NCBI RefSeq assembly: GCF_030295915.1
Contig: NZ_AP027361.1
Span: 434,001-498,000 of the forward strand
Reading direction: 5' to 3'
Origin: Thalassotalea sediminis
GTDB lineage: Bacteria; Pseudomonadota; Gammaproteobacteria; Enterobacterales; Alteromonadaceae
DNA length: 64,000 nucleotides
Shown: positions 4,783-64,000 of the stretch, piece after piece
Layout: the number at the start of each line of letters is the position of its first letter
Position numbering within the stretch: the stretch's first letter is position 1
Made by a program: the position numbers and the translations under genes
Notes under the pieces: model-generated
What the model was told of the DNA's origin: nothing
Databases searched by the model: none
What the model saw: only the letters and a program-made list of their open reading frames with translations

Positions 4783-4839
4783 TAGAGAGCAACAAGAATT
4801 CTAACTTTAAATAAATAATACAAATTTTGGAGATGTTGG

Positions 4840-47413: not shown

Positions 47414-48397
47414 ATGGGGCTATTAGTAGAAGGTACATGGCACGATACTTGGTATGATACTGAAGAAAATAACGGCAAATTTAAGCGTGAACAATCGCAA
47501 CTTCGTCATTGGGTAACGCGAGATGGGCGCGCGGGGCCAACTGGAGATTCAGGCTTTAAGGCGGAATCTGGTCGTTATCATTTATATGTTTCTTTGGCAT
47601 GCCCTTGGGCACATAGAGCGTTAATTTTTCGAGCACTAAAAGAGCTAGAGTCACACATTAGTGTCTCAATTGTAAGCCCAGATATGCTCGACAAAGGCTG
47701 GAGCTTTGATCGAGCACAGGGTGGAACTGGCGATGACTTATATGGTTCAGAATTAATGTCAGAGATATATGTGCGCAATGATGCTAAATACACCGGTCGC
47801 GTTACAGTACCCGTACTCTGGGACAAGAAGCAACAACGTATCGTCAGTAATGAATCTGCTGAAATTATTCGCATGCTTAATACAGCATTTGATCATATAA
47901 CAGGAAACGAACAAGATTATTATCCGCAAACCTTACGTGGCGAAATTGATAAAATAAACGATTTTGTTTACCACAATATTAATAATGGTGTGTATAAAAC
48001 GGGCTTTGCTACCACGCAGTCTGCGTATGAAGAAGCTTATAATAACTTGTTTAGCGCCTTAGATGACATAGAGCAAATATTGGCCACGGAACGCTACCTT
48101 GTCGGTGATCAAATTACTGAAGCAGACTGGCGATTATTCACTACGTTAATTCGTTTTGATGCGGTTTATTTTGGTCATTTTAAATGTAACAAACGCATGA
48201 TTGAGCAATATCCAAATCTTGCGAATTATATTCGTGAATTATTTCAAGTACCTAAAATTGCTGAAACGGTTAATTTTGAACATATTAAGCGCCATTATTA
48301 TTTCAGTCATAAAATGATAAATCCGACGCAAATTGTGCCAGTAGGACCTGATATTAATTATCAAACTGCTCATGGTCGTGCTGAACTGGCAAAGTAA
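47414..48397 (+). CDS. yqjG: Glutathionyl-hydroquinone reductase (YqjG/ECM4, Xi-class GST)
   Basis: Start set at the ATG at 47414 (327 aa) with AGGAGG 6 nt upstream; the longer frame lacks a signal. Catalytic motif ACPWAHRALI with Cys63; later STGRVTVPVLWDKKQ-type beta strand with YTGRVTVPVLWD, NESAEIIRML, and the C-terminal TEADWRLFTTLIRFDAVY and HFKCNKRMI motifs of the Xi class. The enzyme removes glutathione from glutathionyl-hydroquinones. It completes the YhaJ-DoxX-pirin-YqjG module. Confidence 0.94.
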   Translation: MGLLVEGTWHDTWYDTEENNGKFKREQSQLRHWVTRDGRAGPTGDSGFKAESGRYHLYVSLACPWAHRALIFRALKELESHISVSIVSPDMLDKGWSFDRAQGGTGDDLYGSELMSEIYVRNDAKYTGRVTVPVLWDKKQQRIVSNESAEIIRMLNTAFDHITGNEQDYYPQTLRGEIDKINDFVYHNINNGVYKTGFATTQSAYEEAYNNLFSALDDIEQILATERYLVGDQITEADWRLFTTLIRFDAVYFGHFKCNKRMIEQYPNLANYIRELFQVPKIAETVNFEHIKRHYYFSHKMINPTQIVPVGPDINYQTAHGRAELAK

Positions 48398-48588
48398 ATT
48401 ACAGGCATAACGTCAAATGGCTAAACGTATTTGACAAGTATTAACATGCTTAAAGGTAAGTTATTACTTTCAGAGCGTGATTTTCTCATTAAGTAAAAGC
48501 AGGTAGTGAATAAGCAGAGGTAACACGAATGGCACGCTTCTTCTTGCTAGTCGTGTTTCCTCTGTTGTGGGGTGAAGGCAAGCTCTAG

Positions 48589-50760
48589 TTAACTTTTACC
48601 TTGTAAATAACGCTCCCACATACGATGTTGTCGTGTTAGTTCGCTTGCTGTTTCTCGGTCTTGTGCAGCTTTTTCGAAGTGCTGTTCAATCATGTCTGAT
48701 TGCTTAGCGACATGTCGTTTTAAGTCTTTAACGTTATCATTTATGCTATCTAATTTAGACGATAATGAGCGCATTGCTCGACTAAAATCTCGATGAAAGT
48801 CTTTAAACTCTTCTGACTCTAAATGACGTAATGTTGCGTCTTGGCCAGGATACATGTCTTGCAACAAAGTGTTCATTCGATCAATGACGAGTAAATAGCC
48901 GGTATTGTCGTAACGGTATTGGTTTGCAACCCGCGATATTTGTTTTGAACGCACTAACAAACGGCGTGAAAGTTCCTCGTCGCTACTAAAAAAACTTGAG
49001 TATTCATCCTCTTCTAACGACCTGGCATACTCTGTTGCTTGATGTACTTGCGGGGCAAATGGGTAAGCGATGATAAAGTCGTTATAACTTGCAATAGTGC
49101 CTCTGTCGTCTGCGAGCTCAAATGCACGTTTATATAAGGTAAGTAGCGCCTCTTGTGTGTGTTCACTTTGCGGAACATGCTTTATGTACCATTGATATGA
49201 AGCAATGTTATCAGCTTCTTTCACGCGTTGATAAATTTTGTTAAATATAGCGTTTGTTACCCTTGCATCGTCATTGAATTTATCAGCTAAGGCTAAATAG
49301 TCCGCTAACTTTGTTGAGTCTGGGTAACGTGCTATGGCATCAAGTAGACTGTCTCTTTTTATTTGAGCAGGAATATAATCAGACTCGGCAAGCGCAATTA
49401 AGCCTTGATAATCATTGTTATTTTTTAACACGCTATGCAACGATTGATAGGCGAGTACGCGATTTTCTTTGTTACCAAGCAAATCACTGCTAACAAGTGT
49501 TTGTAATTGTTGAACATCGTTATTGTTATTCGCTTGGTTTATTTGCTGTTTGGCGCGTGTGTACCAGTCTGTTTTTAATTGCTCAATCCATTGCTTTCTC
49601 TCAGGAAAATAGTGGCTAAGTGGTACATCATTTTGCTGATATAACGCGGCTAGTTTAGTGAGTTGCGCTACCCCTGATAATTGCTTTGCTTTTTCAGTTT
49701 CTTCAAGCAGTTTCTCTGTGTATTTGCTAGAGGTAATCTTGAGGGCATGTTTACGTAATTGATGATAATTATCGCCAGTTCCCCCTATTTTCATTAATCG
49801 TTTTTCTTGTTGCCAATCGGCAATAAATATTTCGTACTTATCACGTTTTCGAAATTCTAGTGGAGCTAATACGGTAACTAAGGGTAAATTCCCTTGTTCA
49901 ATAAAGTCTACTTTTGCGTAATATGAATCATTTGTTGATAGTTTGGATGTTTTAAACTGTTTAATTAAATGACCTGTATTAATATCAAGTAAGGTAATTT
50001 TACCAAAACCTACTGATAATGCAGTTTTGTTATCTTTCGAAAAGCGTAATTGCCCGCCACCATAATTAGTGCCGGAAACCACGAAGCCAGTACGCATACG
50101 AGTATTGTGGTTATAAAGCTGCTTACCTGTCGCTAAATCCCAAGCGACAATACCGTATTCAACAATCGCAATTAACTTAGTGTCATCCGGAGTAATTCCG
50201 ATTGATCGCACTTCCCGTTTTTTGCCGAATTTAGCCTTTTCTAACGGCAAACGTGTGCCAGATTCAACGTCAAATACGGCTAAGTGATTGTGGTTTTCGA
50301 GGACTAATCGTTTACCTGAGGCAGAAAACTCTGCCCTATCATCCCAACTGCCGCCTTTAATTTTTTGAATGAGTTTTATCGGGTTGGTTTGATAAATGTA
50401 GTAATAGTCGTCATCGCTGTTCCAATTTTCAAACCAAAAACCGAAGCGTTTACCATTAGGTGCCATGGTAAAATTATAATATCTACCCCCTATAGGACTA
50501 TAAGGATTTTGATTATAATCAAGTTTATAAGACACCTTATTTTCTTTGAAAATAACATCGCCTGTTTCAAGGTTTTTAACCGTTACGCCATTACAAGATG
50601 AAGAATGGCTTTTACATCTTATACCTGTTATGGCTATTTTGCCGGCTTCGTCGGTTTGATTTAACACATCATGATTGTTAGTTCTTGTGGATGCATCTAC
50701 AAAGGTGGGTAGTATTGCAATTACCAAAGATAGCACAATGGCGATGTTATATTTTTTCAT
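48589..50760 (-). CDS. Exported beta-propeller (WD40-like) protein with helical and coiled-coil C-terminal part
   Basis: Start set at the ATG at 50760 (723 aa): MKKYNIAIVLSLVIAILPTFVDA is a clear signal peptide; the extra six residues of the longer frame begin with a TTG inside the GGAG signal. Residues ~40-330 have propeller-like repeats (MAPNGKRFGFWFENW, FSASGKRLVLENHNHLAVFD, ITPDDTKLIAIVEYGIVAWDLATGK, FSKDNKTALSVGFGKITLLDINTG). The second half is helical with TPR-like spacing and a coiled coil (~620-700). No catalytic motif is seen. Probably a periplasmic scaffold; function unknown. It is a single gene on the minus strand. Confidence 0.7.
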   Translation of the reverse strand: MKKYNIAIVLSLVIAILPTFVDASTRTNNHDVLNQTDEAGKIAITGIRCKSHSSSCNGVTVKNLETGDVIFKENKVSYKLDYNQNPYSPIGGRYYNFTMAPNGKRFGFWFENWNSDDDYYYIYQTNPIKLIQKIKGGSWDDRAEFSASGKRLVLENHNHLAVFDVESGTRLPLEKAKFGKKREVRSIGITPDDTKLIAIVEYGIVAWDLATGKQLYNHNTRMRTGFVVSGTNYGGGQLRFSKDNKTALSVGFGKITLLDINTGHLIKQFKTSKLSTNDSYYAKVDFIEQGNLPLVTVLAPLEFRKRDKYEIFIADWQQEKRLMKIGGTGDNYHQLRKHALKITSSKYTEKLLEETEKAKQLSGVAQLTKLAALYQQNDVPLSHYFPERKQWIEQLKTDWYTRAKQQINQANNNNDVQQLQTLVSSDLLGNKENRVLAYQSLHSVLKNNNDYQGLIALAESDYIPAQIKRDSLLDAIARYPDSTKLADYLALADKFNDDARVTNAIFNKIYQRVKEADNIASYQWYIKHVPQSEHTQEALLTLYKRAFELADDRGTIASYNDFIIAYPFAPQVHQATEYARSLEEDEYSSFFSSDEELSRRLLVRSKQISRVANQYRYDNTGYLLVIDRMNTLLQDMYPGQDATLRHLESEEFKDFHRDFSRAMRSLSSKLDSINDNVKDLKRHVAKQSDMIEQHFEKAAQDRETASELTRQHRMWERYLQGKS

Positions 50761-50960
50761 TTTGAACGAATACTCCAATTAGACGTCATGAAAACTTATT
50801 TGAGTAATTTCTATCTATAAGCTTATGATTTATAAACGTATCAAACTATATAGAAATATAATGATAAGTACAATATATAGGCAATATAGATGTACATCAG
50901 CTGATAACCTCTAGTGCGTTGATTTGACGCTATTTGTACTGCATTAATTGATGTCAAAAT

Positions 50961-50989
50961 TAGACACAGAGGTATAGCAAGGTTATGCT
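50961..50989 (+). promoter_or_regulatory. Candidate promoter of the cupredoxin-EAL-DUF3034-globin operon
   Basis: TAGACA (50961-50966), 17-nt spacer, TATGCT (50984-50989); predicted start near 50996, 26 nt before the first ATG. Five of six and four of six matches to sigma70 consensus. Confidence 0.5.
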
Positions 50990-51021
50990 CTATTGAACGT
51001 TGTTACTAAATTGGCTTTTTT

Positions 51022-51675
51022 ATGAGTACGTTACGATTTTTAAGGTGGTTAATGTTAATGAGTGCTTTGCTTGTGATACCCACACATGCAAAGACCGTTA
51101 TTCAGGTCAAAAATCAACAAGGTGAGGCATTAAAGCATGCGGTAATTGAAATTATTACTGATGCTAACCCAGATACTTGGCAAGTAAGCTCGACCCCTTA
51201 TATTATGGATCAAATAGACAAAAGCTTTGTACCAGAAGTACTTATTGTGCCAGAAAAAAGCCTGGTGAGTTTTCCTAATAGTGATGATATTCGTCATCAT
51301 GTGTATTCTTTTTCAACAGCAAAAACCTTTGAGTTAAAATTATATGCGGGCAAACCTAAAGCACCAATTACGTTTGAGCAAAGTGGAATTGTGGTCTTAG
51401 GATGTAATATTCATGACGCTATGGTGGGTTATATTTATGTTACTGACAACTCGCATACATATCTTACTAATGAACAGGGTAAAACCAACATAGATTTAAG
51501 TGCACAGCAAATTAAAGAAATAAAGGTATGGCATGCTAATGCCGCAAAAGGTACTAATTATCGTCAATCCTTTACGTCTTTTAACCAACAGAACAATAAT
51601 ATTTTATTAGAATTTGAAACATTACCACCGGTAAAAAGTGATAGTTTCGAAGACGTTTTTAGCCATGCTCACTAA
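51022..51675 (+). CDS. Periplasmic cupredoxin-like protein (methylamine-utilisation type)
   Basis: A 217-residue exported protein (signal ~1-23, cut near THA-KT). It has an N-terminal beta domain and a plastocyanin-like domain: FPNSDDIRHHVYSF gives the first His ligand (H93) and GCNIHDAMVGYI gives Cys128, His131 and Met134, a complete type-1 copper set with C-x2-H-x2-M spacing. Such proteins shuttle electrons or sense copper/redox state. It is first in a four-gene overlapping unit with an EAL protein, DUF3034 and a globin. Confidence 0.82.
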   Translation: MSTLRFLRWLMLMSALLVIPTHAKTVIQVKNQQGEALKHAVIEIITDANPDTWQVSSTPYIMDQIDKSFVPEVLIVPEKSLVSFPNSDDIRHHVYSFSTAKTFELKLYAGKPKAPITFEQSGIVVLGCNIHDAMVGYIYVTDNSHTYLTNEQGKTNIDLSAQQIKEIKVWHANAAKGTNYRQSFTSFNQQNNNILLEFETLPPVKSDSFEDVFSHAH

Positions 51676-53995
51676 ATACCGTTTTAAAACGCAAATAACC
51701 TGGTTATCGACAGGACTCATCTTATTAACAGTAGTGGCGTTAACCGCGAGTTACTGGTTGCGTATTGCTGATTACGCGGAACAGCAAATTAAACAGCAGC
51801 TATCTTCAGCGAAAAATGTCTTGAATCAGAATTTAGTTTCACAAGAAAAAATGTTGATTACTGCCGCGAGCGTTTTGGCTGCTGATTTTGGCTTTAAACA
51901 AGCGATTGCTACTCAAGATAAAAAAACGATTGAAAGTGTCCTGTTAAATCATGGAGAGCGAATTAATGCTGACTTAATGTTGTTGCTTGACTTAAACGGC
52001 AACTTAATAACCACAAGTTCTTCTAAAGCATTACTACCAGACGCCGTAACGGCAGGGGTGAAATCTTTGCCTTTTCGTAATGTTCACGCTCAGTTTCTAA
52101 GTATTGGTGATGTAGTGTTCCAAGTCATCGTGTTACCTGTTAAGGCGCCAAGAGTTATTGCATATACTGTAATTGGTTTTGAGTTTGGTCAGGATTCATT
52201 GTCTGAATTAAAGGAATTGATCTCTCTAGATGTTTCGATTGCTCAACATGATCAAGTTCTTGCAACTACCATGGACAGTGAATACTCGAGTCAAAGAATA
52301 ATGCAAGAAGCGATAGCGCCACCTTCTAATATCTTACTTTCTAGCGATGATTATTTTCATCAATTAAGGCCTTTAGGAAATTCTCAAGATATATCAGTGG
52401 TATTGTCAGCTTCGTTAAAAAAGATTCATCATGATTTTAACCAGTTAATTTCTTCAATTTTATTAATTGCCGTGTTGGTTATTGTTATTGCTATTGCCTT
52501 TTCGCGTTTGCTATCACAAGGGTTATCTAAACCTTTAAATATTTTAATGAACTTAACGCAACGTGTCGGTAGGGGCGATCTCGTTATTCCAAAGCTTTCA
52601 GGAGATTTGCCCAGAGAGTTTACCGAGTTGTATCAGAGTTTTTCGGTAATGGGAGCTGCGATTGAAAATCGTGAGAAAGCAATAAAATATCAAGCAGAGC
52701 GAGATTTATTAACGGGGCTCTATAACCGTCAAAAAATGCTAGAAGTGTTAGAAGCTTCTTTAGCAGAGCATAAACAATTAACGTTAATTGCCTTTAATAT
52801 TAAGGGGTTTAAAGCGCTTAACGATACTATTGGCATCACTAATGGCGATAAAATTTTAAAAGAGCTAGCACATCGTGTTTTTAACTTTTTAGGTCCTTTA
52901 AATACTAATGATATCAAGGTGATTGGTGTTTCTCGCATTAATGCTGATGAGTTTCTAATCGGTGTGGGTAATCAACAGACCGCGCACATCACACGCTTAA
53001 TGGAACACCTACAATCTGAATTGGACCGTCCTTATTGGGTCGATGACATCAAACTTAATGTCGCGCTTTATTTTGGTATAGCGCAGCTTGATGAAGACCA
53101 TGACACTGATGCCGAACACTTGATGCGTAGAGCTGCTATGGCGGTTGCTGCTGCCAGCAATGAGCAAGTTATCGTTCGTTATTACCAGCAAGGTGAAGAT
53201 GAAGCCTATATGTATAAGCTTTCGTTAATTGATGAATTAAAGACTGCATTAGAGGCGGAAGACAGCCCGTTATTTCTTAATTATCAGCCAAAACTTAACA
53301 TTAAATCAGGGCAGGTAGATAAATTAGAAGCGTTAATTCGTTGGATAAACAATAAAGGTGAGTTTGTTAATCCTGAGCTATTTGTTGGGCTCGCTGAGAA
53401 AGCTGGCCTTATTGTAACGTTAACACGTTGGGTTATTTTACAAGTGTTAGATCAAGTAGAGCGTTGGAATATTCAAGGCTATCAATTTAAAGTTTCTATT
53501 AACTTATCAGCACAAGATATTCAACATGATACGTTTGTAGAATATTTGTTAGATACTATCGCGACTAAACAAGTAGAGCCCTATCAAATTACCTTAGAGC
53601 TTACCGAGCGAGATTTAGCGGAAAATGAAAACCTTGTTGCTTCGCGCCTGAGTTACCTTAAGTCTATTGGTTTCCAAATTTCGGTCGATGATTATGGTAT
53701 TGGTCAGTCCTCGCTAGCAAAGCTCAAGCATTTACCTGTTGATGAACTGAAAATTGATAAATGCTTTATTTTAAACTTAGATCAAAATAAACAAGATCAA
53801 GATATTGTTGCTTCTACCGTACTATTAGGTCATCGATTAGGGTTGCAGGTTGTCGCTGAAGGTGTGGAAACAAAAGAAAGCTTAGCATTACTGACACAGT
53901 ATCAATGTGATTATGCGCAAGGCTATTATCTATCGCGTCCGTTAACGGCTGAGAAATTTATAGAATGGTATGAATGTTATGAAACAACTCCTTAG
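51665..53995 (+). CDS. Membrane GGDEF-EAL protein with degenerate GGDEF, probable c-di-GMP phosphodiesterase
   Basis: Start set at the ATG at 51665 (776 aa), overlapping the cupredoxin stop by 11 nt. Two membrane helices (~10-32 and ~258-278) enclose a periplasmic CACHE-like sensor; then HAMP, GGDEF (~345-480) and EAL (~515-770). The cyclase motif reads NADEF (426-430), so synthesis of c-di-GMP is unlikely. The EAL domain keeps E555 of EALIRW, the Asn of INLSAQ, LELTE, the DDYGIG metal loop (DDFGTG usually), LKID and AEGVE, so it should be an active phosphodiesterase. The partner genes suggest copper/redox input. Confidence 0.88.
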   Translation: MLTKYRFKTQITWLSTGLILLTVVALTASYWLRIADYAEQQIKQQLSSAKNVLNQNLVSQEKMLITAASVLAADFGFKQAIATQDKKTIESVLLNHGERINADLMLLLDLNGNLITTSSSKALLPDAVTAGVKSLPFRNVHAQFLSIGDVVFQVIVLPVKAPRVIAYTVIGFEFGQDSLSELKELISLDVSIAQHDQVLATTMDSEYSSQRIMQEAIAPPSNILLSSDDYFHQLRPLGNSQDISVVLSASLKKIHHDFNQLISSILLIAVLVIVIAIAFSRLLSQGLSKPLNILMNLTQRVGRGDLVIPKLSGDLPREFTELYQSFSVMGAAIENREKAIKYQAERDLLTGLYNRQKMLEVLEASLAEHKQLTLIAFNIKGFKALNDTIGITNGDKILKELAHRVFNFLGPLNTNDIKVIGVSRINADEFLIGVGNQQTAHITRLMEHLQSELDRPYWVDDIKLNVALYFGIAQLDEDHDTDAEHLMRRAAMAVAAASNEQVIVRYYQQGEDEAYMYKLSLIDELKTALEAEDSPLFLNYQPKLNIKSGQVDKLEALIRWINNKGEFVNPELFVGLAEKAGLIVTLTRWVILQVLDQVERWNIQGYQFKVSINLSAQDIQHDTFVEYLLDTIATKQVEPYQITLELTERDLAENENLVASRLSYLKSIGFQISVDDYGIGQSSLAKLKHLPVDELKIDKCFILNLDQNKQDQDIVASTVLLGHRLGLQVVAEGVETKESLALLTQYQCDYAQGYYLSRPLTAEKFIEWYECYETTP

Positions 53996-54800
53996 TGCAA
54001 TGATATTTTGTTTACCGTTTATGTGTTTTGCTAATGGTAAAATTTTAGCGACACCTGGTGTTTCACAGGTAGAAGGTGCAGGTGGTGGAGGCATAGTGCC
54101 GTGGGCGCAACTAGCTGGGTATGCAACAGAAGATGAAATTGCGGCATCTGCTTTTTGTTCACAAGCAAACGTGCAAGATTTTCAACTCAATGTGTGCGGC
54201 GCTCAGTTAAACTTATATGATCGTATTGAGCTATCTTATGCCAAGCAAGACTTTGATGTTGAGCCGCTTTCATTGACGTTGAAACAAGAAGTCATTGGCA
54301 TGAAAGTGCGTTTGTATGGTGACTTGGTTTATAGCGATTGGCCGCAAATTTCAGTGGGTGTTCAACATAAAATGTTAGACACACCTGATATCGCTTTTGC
54401 ATTAGGTGCCAAAGAAGACAAAGGTACTGATGTGTACGTTGCCATGAGTAAATTACATTTAGGGGCCTTTGCGGGTTACAACCTGCTATGGAATGCCACG
54501 TTAAGGTACTCTGAAGCGAATGAAATGGGACTATTAGGCTACGGCGGCTTGGAAGGGAACGGTGCTATACATCCCGAGTTGTCAGCCGCAATTTTACTCA
54601 ATAAACATTTGGCGCTTGGTACAGAGTACCGTGTTAAATCAGAAAATTTAGCGGTTAAAGAAAGTAATTGGCATGACGTGTTTTTGGCGTGGTTTCCCAA
54701 TAAGCATTTTAATATGACCGTTGCCTATTTAGATTTAGGCACCATTGCTAATATTGAAGGTCAACATGGTTGGTATGTATCCATTTCGGGGCAGTTCTAA
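53979..54800 (+). CDS. DUF3034 family exported protein, probably outer-membrane
   Basis: A 273-residue protein (from the ATG at 53979; another ATG at 53970 is possible) whose start overlaps the EAL gene by 17 nt. Signal peptide ~1-18 (cut FA-NG). The opening GKILATPGVSQVEGAGGGGIVPWAQLAGY and NLYDRIELSYAKQDFD match my memory of DUF3034, and the many amphipathic strands ending in GWYVSISGQF suggest a small beta barrel. Function is not described as far as I know. Two Cys (FCSQAN, NVCGAQL) could form a disulfide. It overlaps the globin gene by one base. Confidence 0.75.
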   Translation: MKQLLSAMIFCLPFMCFANGKILATPGVSQVEGAGGGGIVPWAQLAGYATEDEIAASAFCSQANVQDFQLNVCGAQLNLYDRIELSYAKQDFDVEPLSLTLKQEVIGMKVRLYGDLVYSDWPQISVGVQHKMLDTPDIAFALGAKEDKGTDVYVAMSKLHLGAFAGYNLLWNATLRYSEANEMGLLGYGGLEGNGAIHPELSAAILLNKHLALGTEYRVKSENLAVKESNWHDVFLAWFPNKHFNMTVAYLDLGTIANIEGQHGWYVSISGQF

Positions 54801-55237
54801 TGTTTTTAAATCCACGTAAATTACTCATTTTATTTTTTAGTTTTTCTTTGTTTGCTTGTTCGTCTACATCCAATAACGACCAAAATACCTTATATGCTTC
54901 GATAGGTGGACAGACTGGTATTGATAAAATTGTTGATAACTTTATCGCTGAAATCGTTAAAGATAAGCAAATTTTTCCGTACTTTGCTAAATCGAGTGTT
55001 AGTCATTTCAGAGCTGGTTTTATTGAGCATATGTGCACGATTACGGGTGGTCCTTGCCGATATAACGGTGACTCCATGGTAGATATACATACAGGAATGA
55101 ATATAACAGAAGCGCATTTTAATCGCGTCGTCGAATTATTAATTGTCGCGATGGAGAAAGCTGATGTTACTTACCCCGTGCAAAATCGTATATTAGCGAA
55201 ATTAGCGCCTATGCGTGGGGAGGTTATTAAACGATAG
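54800..55237 (+). CDS. Group 1 truncated haemoglobin carried as a lipoprotein
   Basis: Start set at the ATG at 54800 (145 aa), overlapping the DUF3034 stop (TAATG), with GGGG 8 nt upstream. Residues 1-19 are a lipoprotein signal with lipobox LFAC; the mature part (~25-145) is a trHb1 fold: LYASIGGQTGIDKIVDNFIAE, HFRAGFIEHMC, then VDIHTGMNITEAHFNRVVELL with the proximal haem His about H97. The B10 position usually occupied by Tyr appears to be non-aromatic or Phe. Truncated haemoglobins are normally cytoplasmic NO/O2-handling proteins, so an exported lipoprotein form is unusual. Last gene of the unit. Confidence 0.82.
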   Translation: MFLNPRKLLILFFSFSLFACSSTSNNDQNTLYASIGGQTGIDKIVDNFIAEIVKDKQIFPYFAKSSVSHFRAGFIEHMCTITGGPCRYNGDSMVDIHTGMNITEAHFNRVVELLIVAMEKADVTYPVQNRILAKLAPMRGEVIKR

Positions 55238-55438
55238 TGTAAATGAATTGACGTGAGTATGTGATAGCGAAAACTGGCAAATTTCTACATCAGATCTACA
55301 GTTAACTATCAGTGATGCTATTTAATATAAACATTTATGGCTCGCTAACGTACATTAGTGATGAGTTGCTCATGACAATAATAATAACCTTGAGCTTTAC
55401 TAGTGGTTTTCCCTGACTAATAACGTAGGTGAAAGGAT

Positions 55439-56110
55439 ATGACCCTAGAAAAAGCAATTGTGTTTTTTACGCTCTTTGGTGTAGCTGTTTCGAGCTATGC
55501 TTCCTACATTACGCTTGATGAAGCGGCATTAGACGACATATATTCACAACCATCATTTGGCGATATGCCCATTGATATTCGTATTGAAGAAGCGCATGAA
55601 ATTGTCGCCCCCGACCTGCTAGACATTACCACAAGAGATCAAGTGAGCCAATTATTTGGTATGCATACAGGCAGCTTGTTAACCGTTAACTTTTATTATA
55701 TTGATACCATTAGTATTTGTGGTAGTACCGTCAGTACTAGTATTGTTGGTTGTGGTGAGTACTTTGGTAATGACTTCGTAGTCGAGTCTAATTTTGCTGA
55801 CAGTTTTTACGGCAGTGAATTGTTAGCACATGAGCTAGGCCATAATTTGGGGCTGCCACACATATTTGGTCAATATTTAATGAACCCAAGTTTGAATAAT
55901 AATACCACTATCACGGAAGCCGAAGTGGCTCGTATTCGACAAAGCCCATTAGTGCAGTCGTTTGATGGCCTTTATTGGATAAACATCAAGCCAGTGCTTA
56001 TTGTAAAGGAATTGGTTAACGTTACTGAACCGAAAACATGGCTGTTATTTTTTATTATGGTTATTGCCGTGGTGAGTGGTCATCGTCGCAGTAAGTTAGT
56101 ACTGAATTAA
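55439..56110 (+). CDS. Matrixin-like zinc metalloprotease with PEP-CTERM-like C-terminal anchor
   Basis: A 223-residue exported protein. Signal ~1-20 (cut YA-SY). The zinc motif HELGHNLGLPH (H131, E132, H135, H141) is the metzincin HExxHxxGxxH and is followed by a Met (M148, YLMNPSL), as in matrixins. The C-terminus has EPKTW, a hydrophobic helix (LLFFIMVIAVVSG) and basic residues HRRSK, the tripartite PEP-CTERM pattern; the usual PEP is here TEP. The protease core is short and lacks a propeptide. AAAGGAT precedes the ATG. No exosortase is in the window. Confidence 0.75.
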   Translation: MTLEKAIVFFTLFGVAVSSYASYITLDEAALDDIYSQPSFGDMPIDIRIEEAHEIVAPDLLDITTRDQVSQLFGMHTGSLLTVNFYYIDTISICGSTVSTSIVGCGEYFGNDFVVESNFADSFYGSELLAHELGHNLGLPHIFGQYLMNPSLNNNTTITEAEVARIRQSPLVQSFDGLYWINIKPVLIVKELVNVTEPKTWLLFFIMVIAVVSGHRRSKLVLN

Positions 56111-56117
56111 AGGTTGT

Positions 56118-56627
56118 ATGGTTTTTAATGGTCGTGGTGATAATTTATCAACGTTACGTAAAGTAAAGTTGCTTTTAGTGACATCGTTATTCTCTATGGT
56201 ATGTTTAGGCCAAGCGTTGGCTAATAATTTATGTGATCAATTTAAAATAGACACTTGGCAACGCTTGTGTCCTACCTCGAAATTTTGTTTCTCTCATCCC
56301 AAGTGGTTAACGCCTCAACACTCGGTTATGATTGACAGCGTTGCGGGTGTTCTGCAAGGAGAGCAACTTGTCTTAACCTATGAACTTGGGCAATACATTA
56401 ATAATTTTGCAAATATTTCAACAAAGCAGCGACAGTTATTTTCATACAATGGTGCTCATGCTGTACTTATAACAACAGCAGACAAAATTGCTTATTTGCA
56501 TAAGCATGGTGAAGGTCTTCTCATGACGATGAGCTTAGCTAAGGGGGCAAACAACAATGATGATTTATTGTTAAGCCTACCGCTAGCAAAGTGTCTTTAT
56601 TCAACCGTTTACTACAGAACTAAATAA
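56118..56627 (+). CDS. Exported small protein of unknown function
   Basis: A 169-residue protein with an N-terminal signal (KVKLLLVTSLFSMVCLGQALA-NN, ~14-36). The mature part contains Cys residues near each end (NLCDQF, RLCPTSKFCF, AKCLYST) that could form disulfides, and mixed strands. It begins 7 nt after the metalloprotease stop and has AAAGG upstream, so it is probably cotranscribed and might be an inhibitor or partner of it. No family recognised. Confidence 0.6.
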   Translation: MVFNGRGDNLSTLRKVKLLLVTSLFSMVCLGQALANNLCDQFKIDTWQRLCPTSKFCFSHPKWLTPQHSVMIDSVAGVLQGEQLVLTYELGQYINNFANISTKQRQLFSYNGAHAVLITTADKIAYLHKHGEGLLMTMSLAKGANNNDDLLLSLPLAKCLYSTVYYRTK

Positions 56628-56675
56628 GTAAAATAAGGCGGAATTAAGCGAAATTTCGCTATTATCAATGCAATA

Positions 56676-57113
56676 TTAGATACTTTTAAGCTGAGGGAGT
56701 TCGTTTATTTGTAGATATTGATTGAGCATTGCACCAAGTTCTGAGTAATCGTGGTTCAAAGTAGACTTTAAGAAGTATCCGGCGATATGATGTTCGTATG
56801 CACTTGCTTTATCTTGATCTCGATTTGACGTTGTTAACACATAAACAATGTTGTTAGATAACATTGGATCGTTACGTAGTTCTTTGAGCATTGCCAACCC
56901 GTTCATTTTGGGCATATTGAGATCAAGTAAAATAATATAAGGTCGGTTACGTAATTTACTTCGCATTAATTCTAGACCTTGTAGCCCATCTTTAGCGCGA
57001 TAAATGGGATTACTAGTGTCTAATTTTCCTAAGGCACGTTGTACGCTAATGGCATCAATATCATCATCTTCTACAATTAAAACTGCGGTAGCATGTTGCT
57101 CATGATGTCCCAT
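56676..57113 (-). CDS. Single-domain response regulator (Rcp1-type)
   Basis: Start set at the ATG at 57113 (145 aa) with AAGGAGG 6 nt upstream; the longer frame would add 21 residues from within the kinase gene. A receiver domain without output domain: VLIVEDDDIDAISVQRAL, ILLDLNMPKMNGLAML (phosphoacceptor Asp), LTTSNRDQDK and FLKS with the conserved Lys. The DxxDxxSxxRAL opening is typical of Rcp1-type regulators that partner phytochrome-like kinases. It overlaps the kinase stop by 14 nt, so it is the cognate regulator. Confidence 0.9.
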   Translation of the reverse strand: MGHHEQHATAVLIVEDDDIDAISVQRALGKLDTSNPIYRAKDGLQGLELMRSKLRNRPYIILLDLNMPKMNGLAMLKELRNDPMLSNNIVYVLTTSNRDQDKASAYEHHIAGYFLKSTLNHDYSELGAMLNQYLQINELPQLKSI

Positions 57114-59703
57114 TGAATACCTCCTTGAACTTTGCGTTTTCTGGCCACGTAAATATAAAGCATGTACCTGTTGCACCGTTTGATTCTATGCTAATTGAAC
57201 AGTCATAACTATCAAGTAATTTTTTTACAATAGCCAAACCCATGCCACTACCTTCGAGTTCATCTCTGGGTTTTAGTGTTTTAAATATACCGAAAATTTG
57301 TTTATGGAATTGAGGTTCAATCCCTGGGCCATCATCACAGACAGAAAATTGATAACCGTTTTTCATTTTTTTACTTGTCACTGTTATGGTGCCACTTTCT
57401 TTATCATGATGCTTTATGGCATTGTTTATCAAGTTTCTAAAAATTTGTTCTAATGGCGTTGTCATGGTTTGTAATGATTTAACATCGCCTTGGATATTTA
57501 GTTTAAATTCAGGAGGAGGATTTAATAGTTGGAAAATATCATCTATCAAGGTTTCAATGTCGACGGCAGCTAACTCACCAACTCTCTCAGTGAGTGTTGC
57601 ATATGAAAGTAAGTCATTTAATAGGCCTTCTAAACGCGACGTTCTACTTTGCATTAATTTAATGTATTCAGCAACCTCAGGCGATTTATTATCTTGTAAT
57701 TCTTCATCTATCCAATTAGATAGCTGCATAATGCCTCTAAGCGGTGCTTTGAGATCATGTGAAGCGATGTAAGCAAATTCAGATAACTCTTCATTGCTTC
57801 GCTCAAGTTCTCGCATGTATTTAGCAAGTGCCAGTTGTGTTTCTTTTTGTAAACTAATATCGCGGATTATTGCTGAAAAAAAGTCTTTGTCTTCTATTTT
57901 CATGTGGGCGATAGAAAGATGAATAGGAAAAGTTTTACCGTTTTTTCGGATAGCAGTAACTTCGCGGCCTATACCTATAATTTGGGGTGTACCGCCTCGC
58001 AAATAATGGTTTAAGTAACTATCATGTTGACTGCGGTCAGGATCTGGCATTAAAACTCTAACGTTTTGTCCTATAATTTCTTTATCTTGATAGCCAAAAA
58101 GTGTTGATGCAGCTTGATTTATATTGAGTATTTTTCCAGATTGGTCAGCGAGTACTACGCCATCGACCATGGTTTCCAATGTTGTTCTTAATCGGTTTTC
58201 TTCATAAGATAGCAGGGCTTTTGTTTTTTTATGTTGTTTAATTTCACTGATAAGTTGCTGCGCGTTCTTTTTTGTATCTCGCCAAAGTTTGAGAAACATG
58301 AGTGTTAGAAAAATGGCACCGAAACCTGAGATTAATACTATTTCAGGTAAACGTGAGCGTATCGAAGTTGTATAAGCTTGTGTATAACTCGCAGTCAACT
58401 CCCAAGATCCTTCCTTTAAATTAACAGCTTGCTCAACGACGTAGTTAGTGTCATTTTTGCTTTCATTTTTTAACTGAGCGAGTAACTGTGCATTTTCTGT
58501 GAGTGATAGGTTGATGTTACTTAAATTTACGTGCTCTTTAAGCGCTTGGAGTAAATTTTCGTATGCGATTACGCCGAGTAAATAGCCATCAGGTTGTTGA
58601 TGTTTTGTTAAGGGTAATACAATTAAAAATCCACGTTCTCCTTGTATTAAATCAACCGTTGGCGATAGCGCTATATTATTTGTTGTACGTGCCAATCTTA
58701 AGGTATTGTAACGTTTTTTCTCTGTTGATAAATTATAGTTTACTGCCATTTCGTTACCCTCTAAAGGTACTATCCAGCGAACCATTAGATTATTATCAAC
58801 CCACTCTATAGCTGTGATTTCTGGAAAATCGGCTACGTATTGTAAACTATCAATTTGCCATTTTTCTTGGGTTAAATTGTCGCTATATTGCCAACGTGTT
58901 GCCATGCGATTTAGTGCTTTTATACGGTTTTCTACAATGACTTTTAGCGTTTTAGCCGTATATTGCGTTTGCGTATTAAGCTTATTTTGTACTTGCTGTT
59001 TTTGCCAATTTTCTACTGCTTGTGAGAGCGCAAAAGTGAATACGATTAACGCAACCGATAAGCTACTTTCTTTCCAATAATACCCAAACAACTTTGATTC
59101 AGGTTTATCTAGCGTAGATACCAAGGTAATTGCTACGCCGATCAGGATAAAATTGATCGACGTATGTAAAGCCATTGCAGACAAGTTACCTAACCCGTAG
59201 GCGGTCTCAATGTTGAAAAGATAACCGACAAATGCGACAAACCCCATACCACTGACGGCAGGGCCAATGAGTTTATTCAGTTGTAGTGACGGAATATTGT
59301 TGTGGACGATTAAAGCGAATCCCGCCATTAAGAAGCACAGCGCAGTACTTATTGCCATGCGACCCGGGTGTGTAGTATTTGTCGTTACATAATGTTCCAT
59401 AAATAACTGATCAATGTATAAATCAACATGACCAATATACTCAATAAAGGTACCTAACCCGACCAAAAAAGCAATGGCGGCCAATAAAGTTGAACTGCTT
59501 ATTTTTTCATAGCTACGGCAAATAACACTTAAACTTACCAATAAAAAACACAAAGCGGTATTAAATTGCATGGCAACAAAGGTTGGGTGTATTTGAACAA
59601 CCTTCGGTAAATTTGCATACCATCCGGCAATCACCGTTAATGCAATTAACGACACTGATACTGCTAAATAACGACTGATAGAGACTGTGCGTATAGTATT
59701 CAT
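57100..59703 (-). CDS. Membrane histidine kinase with CHASE-type sensor and FixL-like PAS domain
   Basis: An 867-residue kinase: about eight N-terminal membrane helices (~10-245), a periplasmic CHASE-like region (~250-460), one further helix, PAS (~500-620), HisKA with ASHDLKAPLRG (His649) and HATPase (~740-850: NLINNAIKHH, DDGPGI, GSGMGLAIVKKL). The PAS segment MPDPDRSQHDSYLNHY...IIGIGREV matches FixL, with His560 at the haem-ligand position (BjFixL H200) and Arg580 20 residues later (BjFixL R220), so it may sense oxygen or another gas. It overlaps the response regulator gene and follows the CheB-CheR gene by 46 nt. Confidence 0.88.
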   Translation of the reverse strand: MNTIRTVSISRYLAVSVSLIALTVIAGWYANLPKVVQIHPTFVAMQFNTALCFLLVSLSVICRSYEKISSSTLLAAIAFLVGLGTFIEYIGHVDLYIDQLFMEHYVTTNTTHPGRMAISTALCFLMAGFALIVHNNIPSLQLNKLIGPAVSGMGFVAFVGYLFNIETAYGLGNLSAMALHTSINFILIGVAITLVSTLDKPESKLFGYYWKESSLSVALIVFTFALSQAVENWQKQQVQNKLNTQTQYTAKTLKVIVENRIKALNRMATRWQYSDNLTQEKWQIDSLQYVADFPEITAIEWVDNNLMVRWIVPLEGNEMAVNYNLSTEKKRYNTLRLARTTNNIALSPTVDLIQGERGFLIVLPLTKHQQPDGYLLGVIAYENLLQALKEHVNLSNINLSLTENAQLLAQLKNESKNDTNYVVEQAVNLKEGSWELTASYTQAYTTSIRSRLPEIVLISGFGAIFLTLMFLKLWRDTKKNAQQLISEIKQHKKTKALLSYEENRLRTTLETMVDGVVLADQSGKILNINQAASTLFGYQDKEIIGQNVRVLMPDPDRSQHDSYLNHYLRGGTPQIIGIGREVTAIRKNGKTFPIHLSIAHMKIEDKDFFSAIIRDISLQKETQLALAKYMRELERSNEELSEFAYIASHDLKAPLRGIMQLSNWIDEELQDNKSPEVAEYIKLMQSRTSRLEGLLNDLLSYATLTERVGELAAVDIETLIDDIFQLLNPPPEFKLNIQGDVKSLQTMTTPLEQIFRNLINNAIKHHDKESGTITVTSKKMKNGYQFSVCDDGPGIEPQFHKQIFGIFKTLKPRDELEGSGMGLAIVKKLLDSYDCSISIESNGATGTCFIFTWPENAKFKEVFNGTS

Positions 59704-59749
59704 CTACCCTCCTTGCGTATATTGGCAATAAACGCTTTGATAAAGCGTA

Positions 59750-62700
59750 TTACGTGCATGATTGTAAAAATAGATTAGTTTTCTTATGAATTAAGGTGTA
59801 GTTAATACTTCGTTGAATAAGAGCTGGCGTTACTTCGTCTTTTGCTAATACGTCATATACGCCTAGATTTAGCGCTTTTTCTCGCAATTCTTTGGTCAAC
59901 ATACCAGAGAGTAAAATAAAGGCGCTGTTTGGTTTTATTTGCTGTACTTGTTCAATCAGTGCTAATCCGTCATCAGCGGCTAAAATATAATCAACGATAT
60001 AAACGTCAAAGTCTTCTTGTTCAATTTTTTCTAGCGCAGCATTTACACTACTAGCAGTAGTTATATTAAACAAATAGTTGTCTTCGCGTTCAATATCAAT
60101 ATTTCTTCGCAATGCGTGCAAATCTACTTCGTCATCGTCGACGAGTAATAATTTTATAACATCTTTGTTTTCCAGAAATAATGAAGCACTTTGCGCATGC
60201 TTTAACATTTCCCAAGAGTCATGCAATTGATTTTTTAATGTGACTGTTTCTGTGATGTCAGTAATGTTAATGACACAACCAAGCGCAACACCATATTGAT
60301 CACGATACGGTGATATTTTTACCAGGCGTTGACCGCTATCGTCTAGGCGATTTACATGCACTTTTATTTCAATATTAGTACGCACAACTTCGGTAATATC
60401 ATGCAAAAGGTCATCGTAATCTAATGCGTGAGAAATATGGTGAAAAGGTCTACCTACATCACTATCTAATAGGTTTACATCATTAACAATTGAGGGGGAG
60501 AACTTACGAATTAACAAGGCTTCGTCGAGAAAAATAAAGCCTATATCGGCTGACCTGATCACATTATCGGTATCGAGTTTACTTTGTAAGGTGATTTCCA
60601 TTTTTTCTTGATACTCGCTATTAACGGTATAAAGCTCTTCGTTTACAGACTGAAGTTCTTCGTTAGTACTTTGTAGCTCCTCGTTAGCCGCCATAAGCTC
60701 TTCATTTGAGCTTTGTAACTCTTCATTAGTCGTTTGTAGCTCTTCAACAGTTACTTGTAGATGTTCTTGTTTCGTTCTGAGTGCATCTTCTAAATCTGAA
60801 ATTAGCTGCTTATTGTGATCATTAACAGGCGCTTCATGAACGATTTTTTCTTGTGGAGCTTGAATAACCTCTTCTTGTTCAAACAATACGACAAAATAGT
60901 TACTCGTTAATCTTGGAGTATCTAGGTATAAAACACGAAGGTTTACCCAGCATTGTTGTTCATTTTCGTCATTAAAGCTGATTCGTTCATAGTGAACACT
61001 TGAGTGTAATGATTGTGCCCGATATAAAGCGGTAGAAACAGCAACACTCAGCCCTTCGATAATATAATCAGAGAGCAAAGAGCTAAACTGACCAGAACCT
61101 ATCTTACGCGTGTATGCGCTAACATCACCAAAAACATGTACCACATTTTGCTCTTCAGAAAGAATAATTGCAGGTGGCGCATATTCTTCGATGATACGTT
61201 CTAAGACTGGCGAATAATTAGGTTTTTTCGAAGACTGCTGAAAGCTAGATAATAGCTGACTAATTGAAGGGCTCTTATTGTTTTTTTGCTCTTGCTGACC
61301 CATTTGTGGACTCGCGTCAATTAGCATCTTAGTGTTGTCTATTTTACGATAAATACGATGGCGTTCATTTTCTACCGCGAAGTGTTGCTTCATATCACCT
61401 AAAGACTCAGATGACCCTAGAAATAAGTAACCATCTTTATTTAGTGAAAAATGCAGTAAGGTAATAATTCGCTTTTGTGCTTTTGGCTGAAAATAAATCA
61501 ATGCATTGCGACAAACGGCTAACTGGCAATTAGAAAACGGTGGATCGGTTAAAATATTATGTGTTGCAAAAATAACCATTTTACGGATGTTTGAGTTGAT
61601 AACGTAATAGTCATCTTGTAAATCGAAATATCGTTTTAATCGTTCTGGTGATACGTCGCTTTCTATGTTTTGTGAAAAACGTCCGAGGCCTGCTTCTGTA
61701 ATTGCATCTGCGTCAACATCGGTTGCAAAAATACGTACCGTGCGATCTAAATTATGCTGACATAGGTACTCGTCTATTAAAATTGCTAAGCTATAAGCTT
61801 CTTCGCCAGTAGAGCAACAAGCACTCCAAATACGAATAATTTCATCAGGTTGTGAATTTTCAATAACATTTGGGATGACTTTTTCAGTTAGCTGTATAAA
61901 AGCATCATCATCTCTAAAAAAGCGCGTAACGCCAATCAGCATATCTTTTGCTAGTGTTTGTAATTCTTTAGGGTTTTTTAATAAATAGTTGTAATATTCG
62001 GTGATACTTTCAACAGTATTAATACCCATACGCCTTTCTATACGGCGAACGATGGTTTTTCCTTTATAATGGCTAAAATCTATATCACTTTTAGCTTTTA
62101 AAAGGTTATAAATATCTGATAACGCATGTTCTATACTTTTATCGGGATCGACAGCTATTTCTTCGCCGGAGACTATGATGTTACTGGTGTAATTGATGAT
62201 CTTTGTCATCATCTGGTCAGCTGATTCGACAATGTCTGAAAAACCCGTTTTAACTGCGTTAAAAGGCATACCATCAAAGGCTGCATCAGATGGTTCTTGA
62301 ACGACCACTAAGCCGCCGACGTCTTTAATGGCTTGAATGCCTCTGGAGCCATCACTACCGGTACCCGATAGAATGACAGCAATAGCGTGATTCTGTTGAT
62401 CTTCTGCGAGCGAGCGGAAGAATGCATCTATGGGGAAATTACCACCAGGATTTTCCATTTGTTCTACTAGCAACACGCTTCCTTCGGCAAGTAATACGTT
62501 TTTTCGCGGCGGTGCTAAATAAATATGATTCGCTTGAACGCGTGTTCCATCTTCCAATTTAGAGATGGGGATCTCTGTATATCGCGCGAGTAATTCTGGC
62601 ATCATACTTTTAAAGTCAGGCGATAAGTGTTGAATAATTATAAAGACATGACCGGTATCAGGTTCAATGTTATGCACAAATGAACGCAGTGCTTCAAGCC

Positions 62701-62770
62701 CACCTGCAGAAGCGCCTATACCAATATAGTAGTTGGGTTGCGTTATGTTATTTGTGTTCGTTACGTCCAT
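59750..62770 (-). CDS. CheB-CheR fusion signalling protein with coiled coil, PAS and receiver domains
   Basis: A 1006-residue cytoplasmic protein. Order: CheB methylesterase (~14-190: GASAGGLEAL with Ser21, QHLSPDFKS with the catalytic His, SGTGSDGSRG with Asp), CheR methyltransferase (~215-475: FFRDDDAF, WSACCSTGEEAYSLA as the SAM loop, NALIYF), linker, a long coiled coil of TNEELQS-type heptads (~675-735), PAS (~740-850), and a receiver (~880-1000, Asp in VYIVDYIL). This layout occurs in non-chemotaxis signalling proteins. No chemoreceptor is near. Probably in one operon with the flanking genes. Confidence 0.92.
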   Translation of the reverse strand: MDVTNTNNITQPNYYIGIGASAGGLEALRSFVHNIEPDTGHVFIIIQHLSPDFKSMMPELLARYTEIPISKLEDGTRVQANHIYLAPPRKNVLLAEGSVLLVEQMENPGGNFPIDAFFRSLAEDQQNHAIAVILSGTGSDGSRGIQAIKDVGGLVVVQEPSDAAFDGMPFNAVKTGFSDIVESADQMMTKIINYTSNIIVSGEEIAVDPDKSIEHALSDIYNLLKAKSDIDFSHYKGKTIVRRIERRMGINTVESITEYYNYLLKNPKELQTLAKDMLIGVTRFFRDDDAFIQLTEKVIPNVIENSQPDEIIRIWSACCSTGEEAYSLAILIDEYLCQHNLDRTVRIFATDVDADAITEAGLGRFSQNIESDVSPERLKRYFDLQDDYYVINSNIRKMVIFATHNILTDPPFSNCQLAVCRNALIYFQPKAQKRIITLLHFSLNKDGYLFLGSSESLGDMKQHFAVENERHRIYRKIDNTKMLIDASPQMGQQEQKNNKSPSISQLLSSFQQSSKKPNYSPVLERIIEEYAPPAIILSEEQNVVHVFGDVSAYTRKIGSGQFSSLLSDYIIEGLSVAVSTALYRAQSLHSSVHYERISFNDENEQQCWVNLRVLYLDTPRLTSNYFVVLFEQEEVIQAPQEKIVHEAPVNDHNKQLISDLEDALRTKQEHLQVTVEELQTTNEELQSSNEELMAANEELQSTNEELQSVNEELYTVNSEYQEKMEITLQSKLDTDNVIRSADIGFIFLDEALLIRKFSPSIVNDVNLLDSDVGRPFHHISHALDYDDLLHDITEVVRTNIEIKVHVNRLDDSGQRLVKISPYRDQYGVALGCVINITDITETVTLKNQLHDSWEMLKHAQSASLFLENKDVIKLLLVDDDEVDLHALRRNIDIEREDNYLFNITTASSVNAALEKIEQEDFDVYIVDYILAADDGLALIEQVQQIKPNSAFILLSGMLTKELREKALNLGVYDVLAKDEVTPALIQRSINYTLIHKKTNLFLQSCT

Positions 62771-62790: not shown

Positions 62791-64000
62791 TTAACCGGTG
62801 TATTGGTTAAAGAGGGCTTCTACTTCCTTGGCAGGCATAGGCTTATTATAAAAATAGCCTTGGCCAATAGCGCATTTCATTAAAATCAGTTCATCAAGTA
62901 TTGCTTGGCTTTCGATGCCTTCGGCAACAATATCAATATTTAGTGCCTTAGCCATGGCGATAACTGCTTTGGTAATTTCTCGATCGTTATCATCATTAAG
63001 AATGTCATTAATAAAGCTTCGATCTATTTTAATTTCGCCAATAGGGTAATTTTTTAAGTGACTTAATGATGAATAGCCAGTGCCAAAATCATCAAGGGCA
63101 ATTTTTATGTGACAATTGGCGAGTTCTTTTAAAATAAAGTTTACTTCTTTGTTGTCTTGCAACAAGGTGGTTTCGGTGATTTCGAGTACAAGATTATGCC
63201 CGCGTAAGTGATTGTCATCAATACATTTTAAAATGAATTTGATTAAATCAGGGTCTGTAAATTGCTTCGGACTTAAATTAACCGCCATTGCAACATCGTT
63301 TGACAGTTTGCCAGCCTTAATCCAACGTGCTAATTGCGTTAAGGCTTGTTTAATTACTCGCCGACCCGTTGGTACAATTAGGCCGATTTCTTCTAACATT
63401 GGGATAAATTGATCTGGCGGTATGATCGTATTGTCGTGTTTTCGCCATCGGAGTAACGCTTCTAAGCCAACGATTTTTTGAGAATTGTTATCAATTTGCA
63501 ATTGATAAAACAATTCAAACTCATTTTGACTAACTGCACGGTGCAAGTTATTGCCCATCTCAAGTCGGTCTCGTGAGGTTTTATCAAGGTTCGAGGAATA
63601 ATATTGTACCGTGTTCCTGCCCATATCCTTGGCATGATACATAGCAATGTCAGCTTGTTTCATTAGTTGTGTGCTGGTTGTTTTTTGTCCCGCCACTGCA
63701 AAGCATATACCGATACTTGCTGAAATAAATACTTCTTCTGATTCGATAATGAAAGGCTTGTTAAGGGCGTTAAGTATTTTATTAGCAACTGCTGAAGCAA
63801 CTTCTGAATCTTGTAGCTGCTCTAATACAACAATAAATTCATCCCCCCCTAACCTGGCTAGAAAGTCTTCTTTGCGCAAAACTTTTAGAATTCTTGTTGA
63901 AACCAGTACTAAAAGCTTATCTCCAGCATCGTGGCCCATGGTATCATTAACGTTTTTAAAACCATCTAAATCCATACTGAGCATTGCCATTGCACCCCTA
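62791..64000 (-). CDS. GGDEF-EAL protein (diguanylate cyclase/phosphodiesterase), 5' end outside the window
   Basis: The frame is open to the right edge; ~403 residues are visible, starting inside the GGDEF domain (MLSMDLDGFKNVNDTMGH). The cyclase motif LGGDEF and the preceding metal-binding DLDGFK are intact, and the EAL domain keeps EALLRW, NLSPKQF, LEITE, DDFGTGYSS, IKID and AEGIE, so both activities are possible. It is the most upstream visible gene of the operon and ends 20 nt before the CheB-CheR start. Sensory N-terminus unknown. Confidence 0.9.
   Translation of the reverse strand, partial: RGAMAMLSMDLDGFKNVNDTMGHDAGDKLLVLVSTRILKVLRKEDFLARLGGDEFIVVLEQLQDSEVASAVANKILNALNKPFIIESEEVFISASIGICFAVAGQKTTSTQLMKQADIAMYHAKDMGRNTVQYYSSNLDKTSRDRLEMGNNLHRAVSQNEFELFYQLQIDNNSQKIVGLEALLRWRKHDNTIIPPDQFIPMLEEIGLIVPTGRRVIKQALTQLARWIKAGKLSNDVAMAVNLSPKQFTDPDLIKFILKCIDDNHLRGHNLVLEITETTLLQDNKEVNFILKELANCHIKIALDDFGTGYSSLSHLKNYPIGEIKIDRSFINDILNDDNDREITKAVIAMAKALNIDIVAEGIESQAILDELILMKCAIGQGYFYNKPMPAKEVEALFNQYTG

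Follow-up and report, generated by a model that had tools for sequence, protein, structure and literature searches.

A widespread cassette places a predicted blue-copper protein beside a dCache receptor, a DUF3034 protein and an exported globin

Four overlapping genes at 51022-55237 of a 64,000-nucleotide stretch of Thalassotalea sediminis DNA (the window, positions 434001-498000 of a contig that is the whole 3.9 Mb genome) constitute a widespread signalling cassette, made of known parts in a new combination. They encode a cupredoxin, a dCache_3-HAMP-GGDEF-EAL receptor, a DUF3034 protein and a lipoprotein globin. More important than the cassette itself is the general pairing of such cupredoxins with Cache receptors, which extends to loci that lack the other two genes. 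The features, in window coordinates and as read from the list of open reading frames (ORFs), the sequence, Pfam and structural models, are as follows.

51022-51675, plus strand: cupredoxin gene (ORF list, sequence), for a periplasmic cupredoxin of 217 residues with a signal peptide recognized by eye and a predicted type 1 copper site of H92, C128, H131 and M134
51295-51423, plus strand: predicted copper-ligand stretch, with the codons of His92 at 51295, Cys128 at 51403, His131 at 51412 and Met134 at 51421
51665-53995, plus strand: dCache_3-HAMP-GGDEF-EAL receptor gene (ORF list, sequence, Pfam), for an inner-membrane receptor of 776 residues
51782-52273, plus strand: dCache_3 periplasmic sensor domain, residues 40-203 (Pfam)
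52934-52954, plus strand: degenerate GGDEF motif, RINADEF (sequence)
53234-53941, plus strand: EAL phosphodiesterase domain with complete catalytic residues (Pfam, alignment)
53979-54800, plus strand: DUF3034 gene (ORF list, sequence, Pfam), for a predicted 12-strand outer-membrane beta-barrel (Pfam, model) with a signal peptide recognized by eye
54800-55237, plus strand: lipoprotein globin gene (ORF list, sequence, Pfam), for an exported group 1 truncated globin with lipobox Cys20, proximal His97, a C79/C86 pair and nonpolar residues at B10, E7 and E11

An earlier note on this DNA had described four overlapping genes for these types of product, and the ORFs, the sequence, Pfam and, for the cupredoxin, a model and a profile bear that description out. 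The overlaps are 11, 17 and 1 nucleotides: the receptor ATG lies inside the cupredoxin gene, the DUF3034 start ATG at 53979 yields a protein of 273 residues, a length common among the listed relatives (the ORF list offers an alternative in-frame ATG at 53970), and the globin start shares one nucleotide with the DUF3034 stop, as TAATG. We infer translational coupling from these overlaps. The genome carries one DUF3034 gene, one cupredoxin of this family, 24 EAL matches and two truncated globins. A search of window positions 48000-57500 against Rfam gave no match at the gathering score, and promoter and terminator scans gave no excess over shuffled sequence.

To follow the four genes across genomes, loci were retrieved by DUF3034 alone in three sets (named genome contigs, a class sample and a phylum sample), and the four families were scored with hidden Markov models (HMMs) grown from the window proteins. 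DUF3034 was present in 15/274 class genomes, 108/196 family genomes and 25/299 phylum genomes, the T. sediminis genome included, and nearly always once per genome. The gene order is not peculiar to T. sediminis; an order confined to this genome was what the earlier note had named as refuting its proposal. Among named contigs, which held at least 573 DUF3034 relatives, the best 80 were scored, a choice biased to close relatives, and the order cupredoxin-receptor-DUF3034-globin appeared in 64 of these 80 loci (with a split receptor ORF in L034 and L048). The nearest named relatives in this set belong to Thalassotalea, with 87% identity in DUF3034, and complete sets include Thalassotalea, Colwellia, Pseudoalteromonas, Alteromonas, Shewanella, Rheinheimera, Methylophaga, Hahella, Thalassolituus, Pseudomonas and Xanthomonas. 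The other 16 of the best 80 comprise six loci with DUF3034 and globin only, six with cupredoxin, DUF3034 and globin (five from Marinomonas and one from Paraglaciecola) and four with other partial sets; a contig end cuts four of the 16 (L052, L065, L086 and L104). All four families were found in 7/14 class-sample loci, one of them rearranged (L021), and in 13 of 20 phylum-sample loci from 19 further genomes. In another class of the phylum, all four loci show two divergent operons, DUF3034-globin opposite cupredoxin-receptor. The four families cluster more than expected by chance and, because the set is kept through rearrangement, a functional link appears to account for it better than common ancestry of a single operon does. 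The divergent DUF3034 loci L025-L028 had no partner by HMM (the typed neighbours were four of L025 and two of L028), and L029 lies at a contig end and is fragmentary.

The unit consists of two modules, DUF3034 with globin and cupredoxin with Cache receptor, and each is also found without the other. Cupredoxins lying away from DUF3034 were collected from the class sample (17 fetched, namely all 12 with at least 120 bits and five weaker) and from the phylum sample (19 fetched, 15 with at least 160 bits and four weaker). In 11 of the 12 stronger class-sample cases, a same-strand Cache receptor lay no more than 2 kb away, directly downstream in eight, 1.8 kb downstream in L244, and upstream with about 0.8-0.9 kb between in L235 and L240; the twelfth, L241, had no Cache receptor nearby. 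Of the 15 stronger phylum-sample cupredoxins, ten adjoin a receptor, four have no receptor beside them and the locus of the remaining one (L284) is truncated at a contig end. The weaker cupredoxins had a receptor in 0/5 class-sample and 2/4 phylum-sample cases, one of the latter with a MauG-type gene between the two; this is L293, where a gene for a MauG-type di-heme peroxidase (3684-5329) separates the cupredoxin from a Cache-type hybrid histidine kinase.

The sensor region matches the receptor HMM at every one of these loci, and the output domain varies. Ten loci carry GGDEF-EAL outputs (L239 and L240 by Pfam; L235, L278, L279, L282, L286 and L288-L290 by the receptor HMM only), five a class III nucleotide cyclase (L234, L237, L238, L281 and L283), five a Ser/Thr kinase (L242-L245 and L292) and three a histidine kinase (L236, L293 and L294). 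A kinase version of the receptor also stands beside DUF3034 in L020. Among 15 sensors typed by Pfam, dCache_3 was found in ten (below cut-off in L236) and dCache_1 below cut-off in L243 and L245, and Pfam gave no Cache-type domain in the sensors of L239, L293 and L294. Since the output varies beside related cupredoxins, the cupredoxin appears to stay with the periplasmic sensor and not with one cytoplasmic enzyme. A quick cupredoxin tree of 76 rows picked by hand requires at least eight output changes, with 15/73 inner branches starred, and gives only a hint that receptor outputs were swapped several times.

The pairing was also approached from the receptor side. A profile of the receptor sensor region (A6) was searched in 200 phylum genomes, where 17, T. 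sediminis included, had a strong match of at least 100 bits. In 12 of the 17, a cupredoxin lies at the same locus (in one about 1 kb away). Four of the five strong-receptor genomes without an adjoining cupredoxin carry one elsewhere, with receptor and cupredoxin at separate places (G595, G611, G296 and G317). Around 13 weaker A6 matches with fetched loci, no cupredoxin was found within flanks of about 1.5 kb.

The product of 51022-51675 is predicted to be a type 1 copper (blue-copper) protein. Its Pfam search gave no match; a profile that matches copper nitrite reductase (NirK; E 1.3e-5), a predicted model and conserved ligands identify it as a cupredoxin. The model (pLDDT, the predicted local distance difference test, 92.7) has copper nitrite reductase (NirK), amicyanin and pseudoazurin as its best matches in the PDB, and the His, Cys, His, Met ligand set of type 1 cupredoxins falls within a cupredoxin fold by sequence and predicted model. 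In an alignment of 82 cupredoxins, the window protein included, H92, C128, H131 and M134 are conserved in 81 each. The ligands are spaced C-x2-H-x2-M, which we take to be the amicyanin type, in agreement with the amicyanin matches of the model. The protein has 6791 relatives at E ≤ 0.001, and 38/299 genomes of the phylum sample carry one at E ≤ 1e-20; many named entries among 120 listed relatives are labelled 'methylamine utilization protein'. Weak relatives of less than 110 bits (L246-L250, L295 and L296) were counted outside the family, as the receptor HMM found no Cache receptor beside them. Pfam typing of neighbours covered L248, L249 and L250 and gave a cbb3 oxidase and a phosphoesterase, a MauG-type peroxidase and a universal stress protein, respectively.

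In the receptor, Pfam identifies EAL (E 4e-66), GGDEF (E 7e-21) and dCache_3 (E 1e-12), with HAMP below cut-off. Eight positions taken as EAL catalytic residues (E555, N613, E645, D675, D676, K696, E732 and Q752) are invariant in 74/74 receptors, as expected of an EAL phosphodiesterase. The canonical GGDEF motif occurs in 24/74 receptors, and the window protein reads RINADEF in place of the GG[D/E]EF of a diguanylate cyclase. In this one respect the GGDEF-EAL description of the earlier note is corrected. A changed motif need not mean an inactive domain, as MbaA, with SGDEF, appears active in vivo according to the excerpted text of PMC8079147. The dCache_3 domain (residues 40-203) contains no cysteine, and hence no CXXCH heme motif. 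In Methylophaga, a second Cache receptor lies convergent with the cassette on the minus strand (L043 8177-9595, L047 8200-9645 and L051 8190-9683); that of L043 has dCache_3 and GGDEF without EAL by Pfam and is a possible opposing cyclase, and those of L047 and L051 were matched by the receptor HMM only.

The globin matches Bac_globin in Pfam (PF01152, E 1e-15) and has the proximal His F8, which together place it among group 1 truncated globins; its best PDB relatives are group 1 truncated globins of the HbN type. Among 126 globins linked to the cassette genes, the heme ligand His F8 is present in all 126, the Cys pair in 125, and nonpolar residues at B10, E7 and E11 together in 125. Nine unlinked globins from the window genome and relatives' genomes have Tyr at B10 by eye, a loose control in that eight of the nine look like group 2. 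The likeness to mycobacterial HbN lies in the fold family and the proximal His, whereas the window globin is an exported lipoprotein with a C-x6-C pair and has Ile, Phe and Phe opposite Tyr33, Leu54 and Gln58 of HbN; the Tyr B10 with Gln E11 of an HbN-type nitric oxide (NO) dioxygenase is here Ile and Phe. In general heme chemistry, nonpolar residues around the distal side work against stable O2 binding and in favour of NO or carbon monoxide. As judged from the residues that line it, the pocket would argue against O2 storage or HbN-type NO dioxygenation and would fit NO-type binding. The C-x6-C pair, near-invariant and ending in GGPC, lies at window positions 55034-55057 and at the same place in linked globins, and is possibly a disulfide near the distal pocket.

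DUF3034 itself scores above the Pfam cut-off (PF11231, E 1e-104, 350 bits against 25), and a search of its sequence profile against the PDB found nothing up to E 0.1. Its model resembles the 12-strand outer-membrane barrels FapF, KdgM and NanC, a likeness by model comparison that amounts to fold resemblance only, at about 8-12% identity over the aligned part. A function was not taken from the fold, as the FapF and KdgM matches are shared-barrel matches, and FapF is not proposed as a homologue. Other barrel-like proteins adjoin cupredoxin-receptor pairs in L289 (7678-8922, BBP2 below cut-off), L020 (11924-13048, Porin_5 above cut-off) and L240 (6526-7416, OMP_b-brl below cut-off), so that the pair may often be accompanied by some outer-membrane barrel; one downstream porin-like protein had no match in PHROGs. 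Broken DUF3034 copies, in pieces or with an in-frame stop, occur in four genomes: G535:C3 (L183), G360 (L193), G450 (L194) and G085 (L016).

Together, these observations lead us to propose, tentatively and at somewhat less than even confidence, that the cassette is an envelope relay in which the cupredoxin serves as co-receptor of the dCache GGDEF-EAL receptor, with the barrel and globin supplying a redox or NO cue. The cupredoxin is predicted to act as a periplasmic co-receptor of the dCache domain that switches a phosphodiesterase of cyclic dimeric guanosine monophosphate (c-di-GMP), a messenger favouring biofilm life. Its docking on dCache would depend on copper or redox state and would move the HAMP and EAL domains. 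At the outer membrane, the cue is likely supplied or gated by the predicted DUF3034 barrel together with the exported globin, and the globin would bind NO or a similar ligand and pass a redox change to the cupredoxin. The outcome would be a lowered c-di-GMP level and dispersal or motility. Because of the nonpolar distal pocket, NO or redox state would be the preferred cue, with copper loading or a small dCache ligand as alternatives. The earlier note had suggested an envelope electron-transfer or gas/copper-sensing system, encoded as one unit, that lowers c-di-GMP. Envelope sensing that lowers c-di-GMP fits the invariant EAL positions, the GGDEF motif that is degenerate here and the widely kept order; the one unit gives way to two modules, each also occurring without the other, and the cupredoxin-Cache module also has outputs beyond c-di-GMP enzymes. 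A wider proposal, which we regard as rather doubtful, is a general receptor class with a blue-copper co-receptor, in which copper redox state, set at the outer membrane by an exported NO-selective globin, would be read by dCache and relayed to outputs that can replace one another (c-di-GMP hydrolysis, cyclic nucleotides, and Ser/Thr or His phosphorylation).

Several observations weigh against the co-receptor relay. Cupredoxin-dCache contact, copper binding and heme binding are predictions here. From the 108 family loci, 20 were selected by hand, many of them because they scored low; nine of the 20 (L184-L192) have DUF3034 and globin alone, and this pair appears to have a function of its own because it is found without the other module; the other 11 comprise ten with all four genes (L193 and L195-L203, with DUF3034 broken in L193) and a fragment (L194). 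Cupredoxins without an adjacent receptor occur in Marinomonas-type loci and in L024, L176, L241, L280, L285, L287 and L291. The genome of L024 (G107) has cupredoxin, globin and DUF3034, but scoring of 10 of 36 candidates turned up no receptor match at E ≤ 1e-10; it is a case against an obligate cupredoxin-receptor pair. Conversely, in G573, which carries a receptor, no cupredoxin reached E ≤ 1e-10. The A6 profile was built from cupredoxin-adjacent receptors, which makes the adjacent cases partly circular, though not the four unlinked genomes. Distance-matrix correlation (mirror-tree; 92 loci used, 42 dropped) does not single out cupredoxin with Cache (0.60) from cupredoxin with output (0.61), the difference of -0.09 to 0.06 being none; DUF3034-globin stood slightly above cupredoxin-globin (0.06 to 0.18). 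Lastly, nothing clear emerged in 105 upstream regions from ten consensus motifs of regulators (copper, NO, O2 and others) or de novo palindromes, with NsrR half-sites at 17 against 6-21 in five shuffles, within range.

A different signal is conceivable: copper loading of the cupredoxin might itself be sensed, with globin and barrel carrying out a separate, merely co-regulated detoxification. This would suit the near-invariant copper ligands and the many loci where the cupredoxin-receptor pair lacks a globin. We nevertheless consider it unlikely, given that the upstream regions show no clear signal for consensus motifs of copper regulators, that no copper efflux family appears among the Pfam-typed neighbours (a small part of all neighbours), and that DUF3034-globin shares the operon in those 64 of the best 80 named loci.

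Cupredoxins are established electron carriers, and the cassette might instead be a respiratory or detoxifying chain in which the cupredoxin gives electrons to the globin for NO or peroxide chemistry, the GGDEF-EAL protein only adjusts lifestyle, and cupredoxin and receptor make no direct contact. The cbb3 oxidase and MauG-type peroxidase beside the weak cupredoxin relatives L248 and L249, the MauG-type gene inside the pair of L293, and the existence of DUF3034-globin alone would all be in keeping with such a chain. Yet without DUF3034 the cupredoxin adjoins a Cache receptor and not a globin, cupredoxin and receptor co-occur at unlinked loci, and the Tyr and Gln of HbN are absent from the globin pocket; this explanation, too, seems improbable. 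That a small ligand enters via the DUF3034 barrel and is bound by the dCache domain itself, with cupredoxin and globin as accessory stress proteins, is very unlikely, since receptors without DUF3034 nearby still have a cupredoxin nearby, even though KdgM and NanC, which the barrel model resembles, are substrate-specific porins and Cache domains are regarded, in the excerpts of PMC8846402, as extracellular sensor modules relaying signals to output domains.

For the co-receptor relay, the closest precedent is NspS-MbaA of Vibrio cholerae, where, as here, the gene for an accessory periplasmic protein lies directly upstream of that for an inner-membrane GGDEF-EAL receptor. In the excerpts of PMC8079147, NspS controls the phosphodiesterase of MbaA, and the GGDEF motif of MbaA is likewise changed (SGDEF). 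NspS, however, is a polyamine-binding periplasmic protein, whereas here a cupredoxin stands in place of a solute-binding protein; those excerpts name no outer-membrane barrel or globin, and related cupredoxins here also adjoin other outputs. In Salmonella, periplasmic redox state feeds a GGDEF-EAL protein through DsbA/DsbB-STM3615, and copper chloride annulled the biofilm of dsb mutants; that system works via disulfide status, and no dedicated copper protein is named in the excerpted text (PMC4143323). The sCache_heme (DUF3365/Tll0287) proteins are also Cache-type sensors with NO-type properties and with outputs that include GGDEF/EAL and kinases, but there CXXCH ties the heme covalently to the Cache domain (PMC12889525, a preprint, in excerpt), whereas the window dCache has no Cys and a separate protein, the exported globin, would carry the heme.

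Just downstream of the cassette, and outside the conserved set, 55439-56110 encodes a small metalloprotease-like protein with HELGHNLGLPH and a C-terminal hydrophobic tail, whose M10/M12 Pfam matches are weak and below cut-off. Further signalling genes lie on the minus strand, at 56676-62770 and about 62839-63552: a small response regulator, a PAS histidine kinase and a large CheB-CheR-like hybrid were recognized by eye, and there is one more EAL match. Among the nine hand-picked loci with DUF3034 and globin only, neighbours were typed in four and differ: L184 has a divergent response regulator-CheX gene and a PAS protein, with like-sized ORFs in L185 and L187-L189, and L190-L192 have endonuclease I proteins as neighbours.

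In open-licence literature we found no description of the four-gene set, weak evidence of absence as most subscription journals fell outside this scope; DUF3034 is mentioned in two papers, the excerpts of PMC9600515 and PMC3770913 hold nothing on it, and the terms 'copper' and 'cupredoxin' have a count of 0 in the main text of a review of c-di-GMP sensory inputs (PMC8846402).

To our knowledge, cupredoxins are recognized as electron carriers and not as signal co-receptors. If the proposal is true, DUF3034 clusters, a large cupredoxin family and exported globins would all gain a function, and respiration or NO would be linked to biofilm exit in marine and soil bacteria in a directly testable way. 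A blue-copper protein would then report the redox or NO state of the envelope to receptors with swappable outputs.

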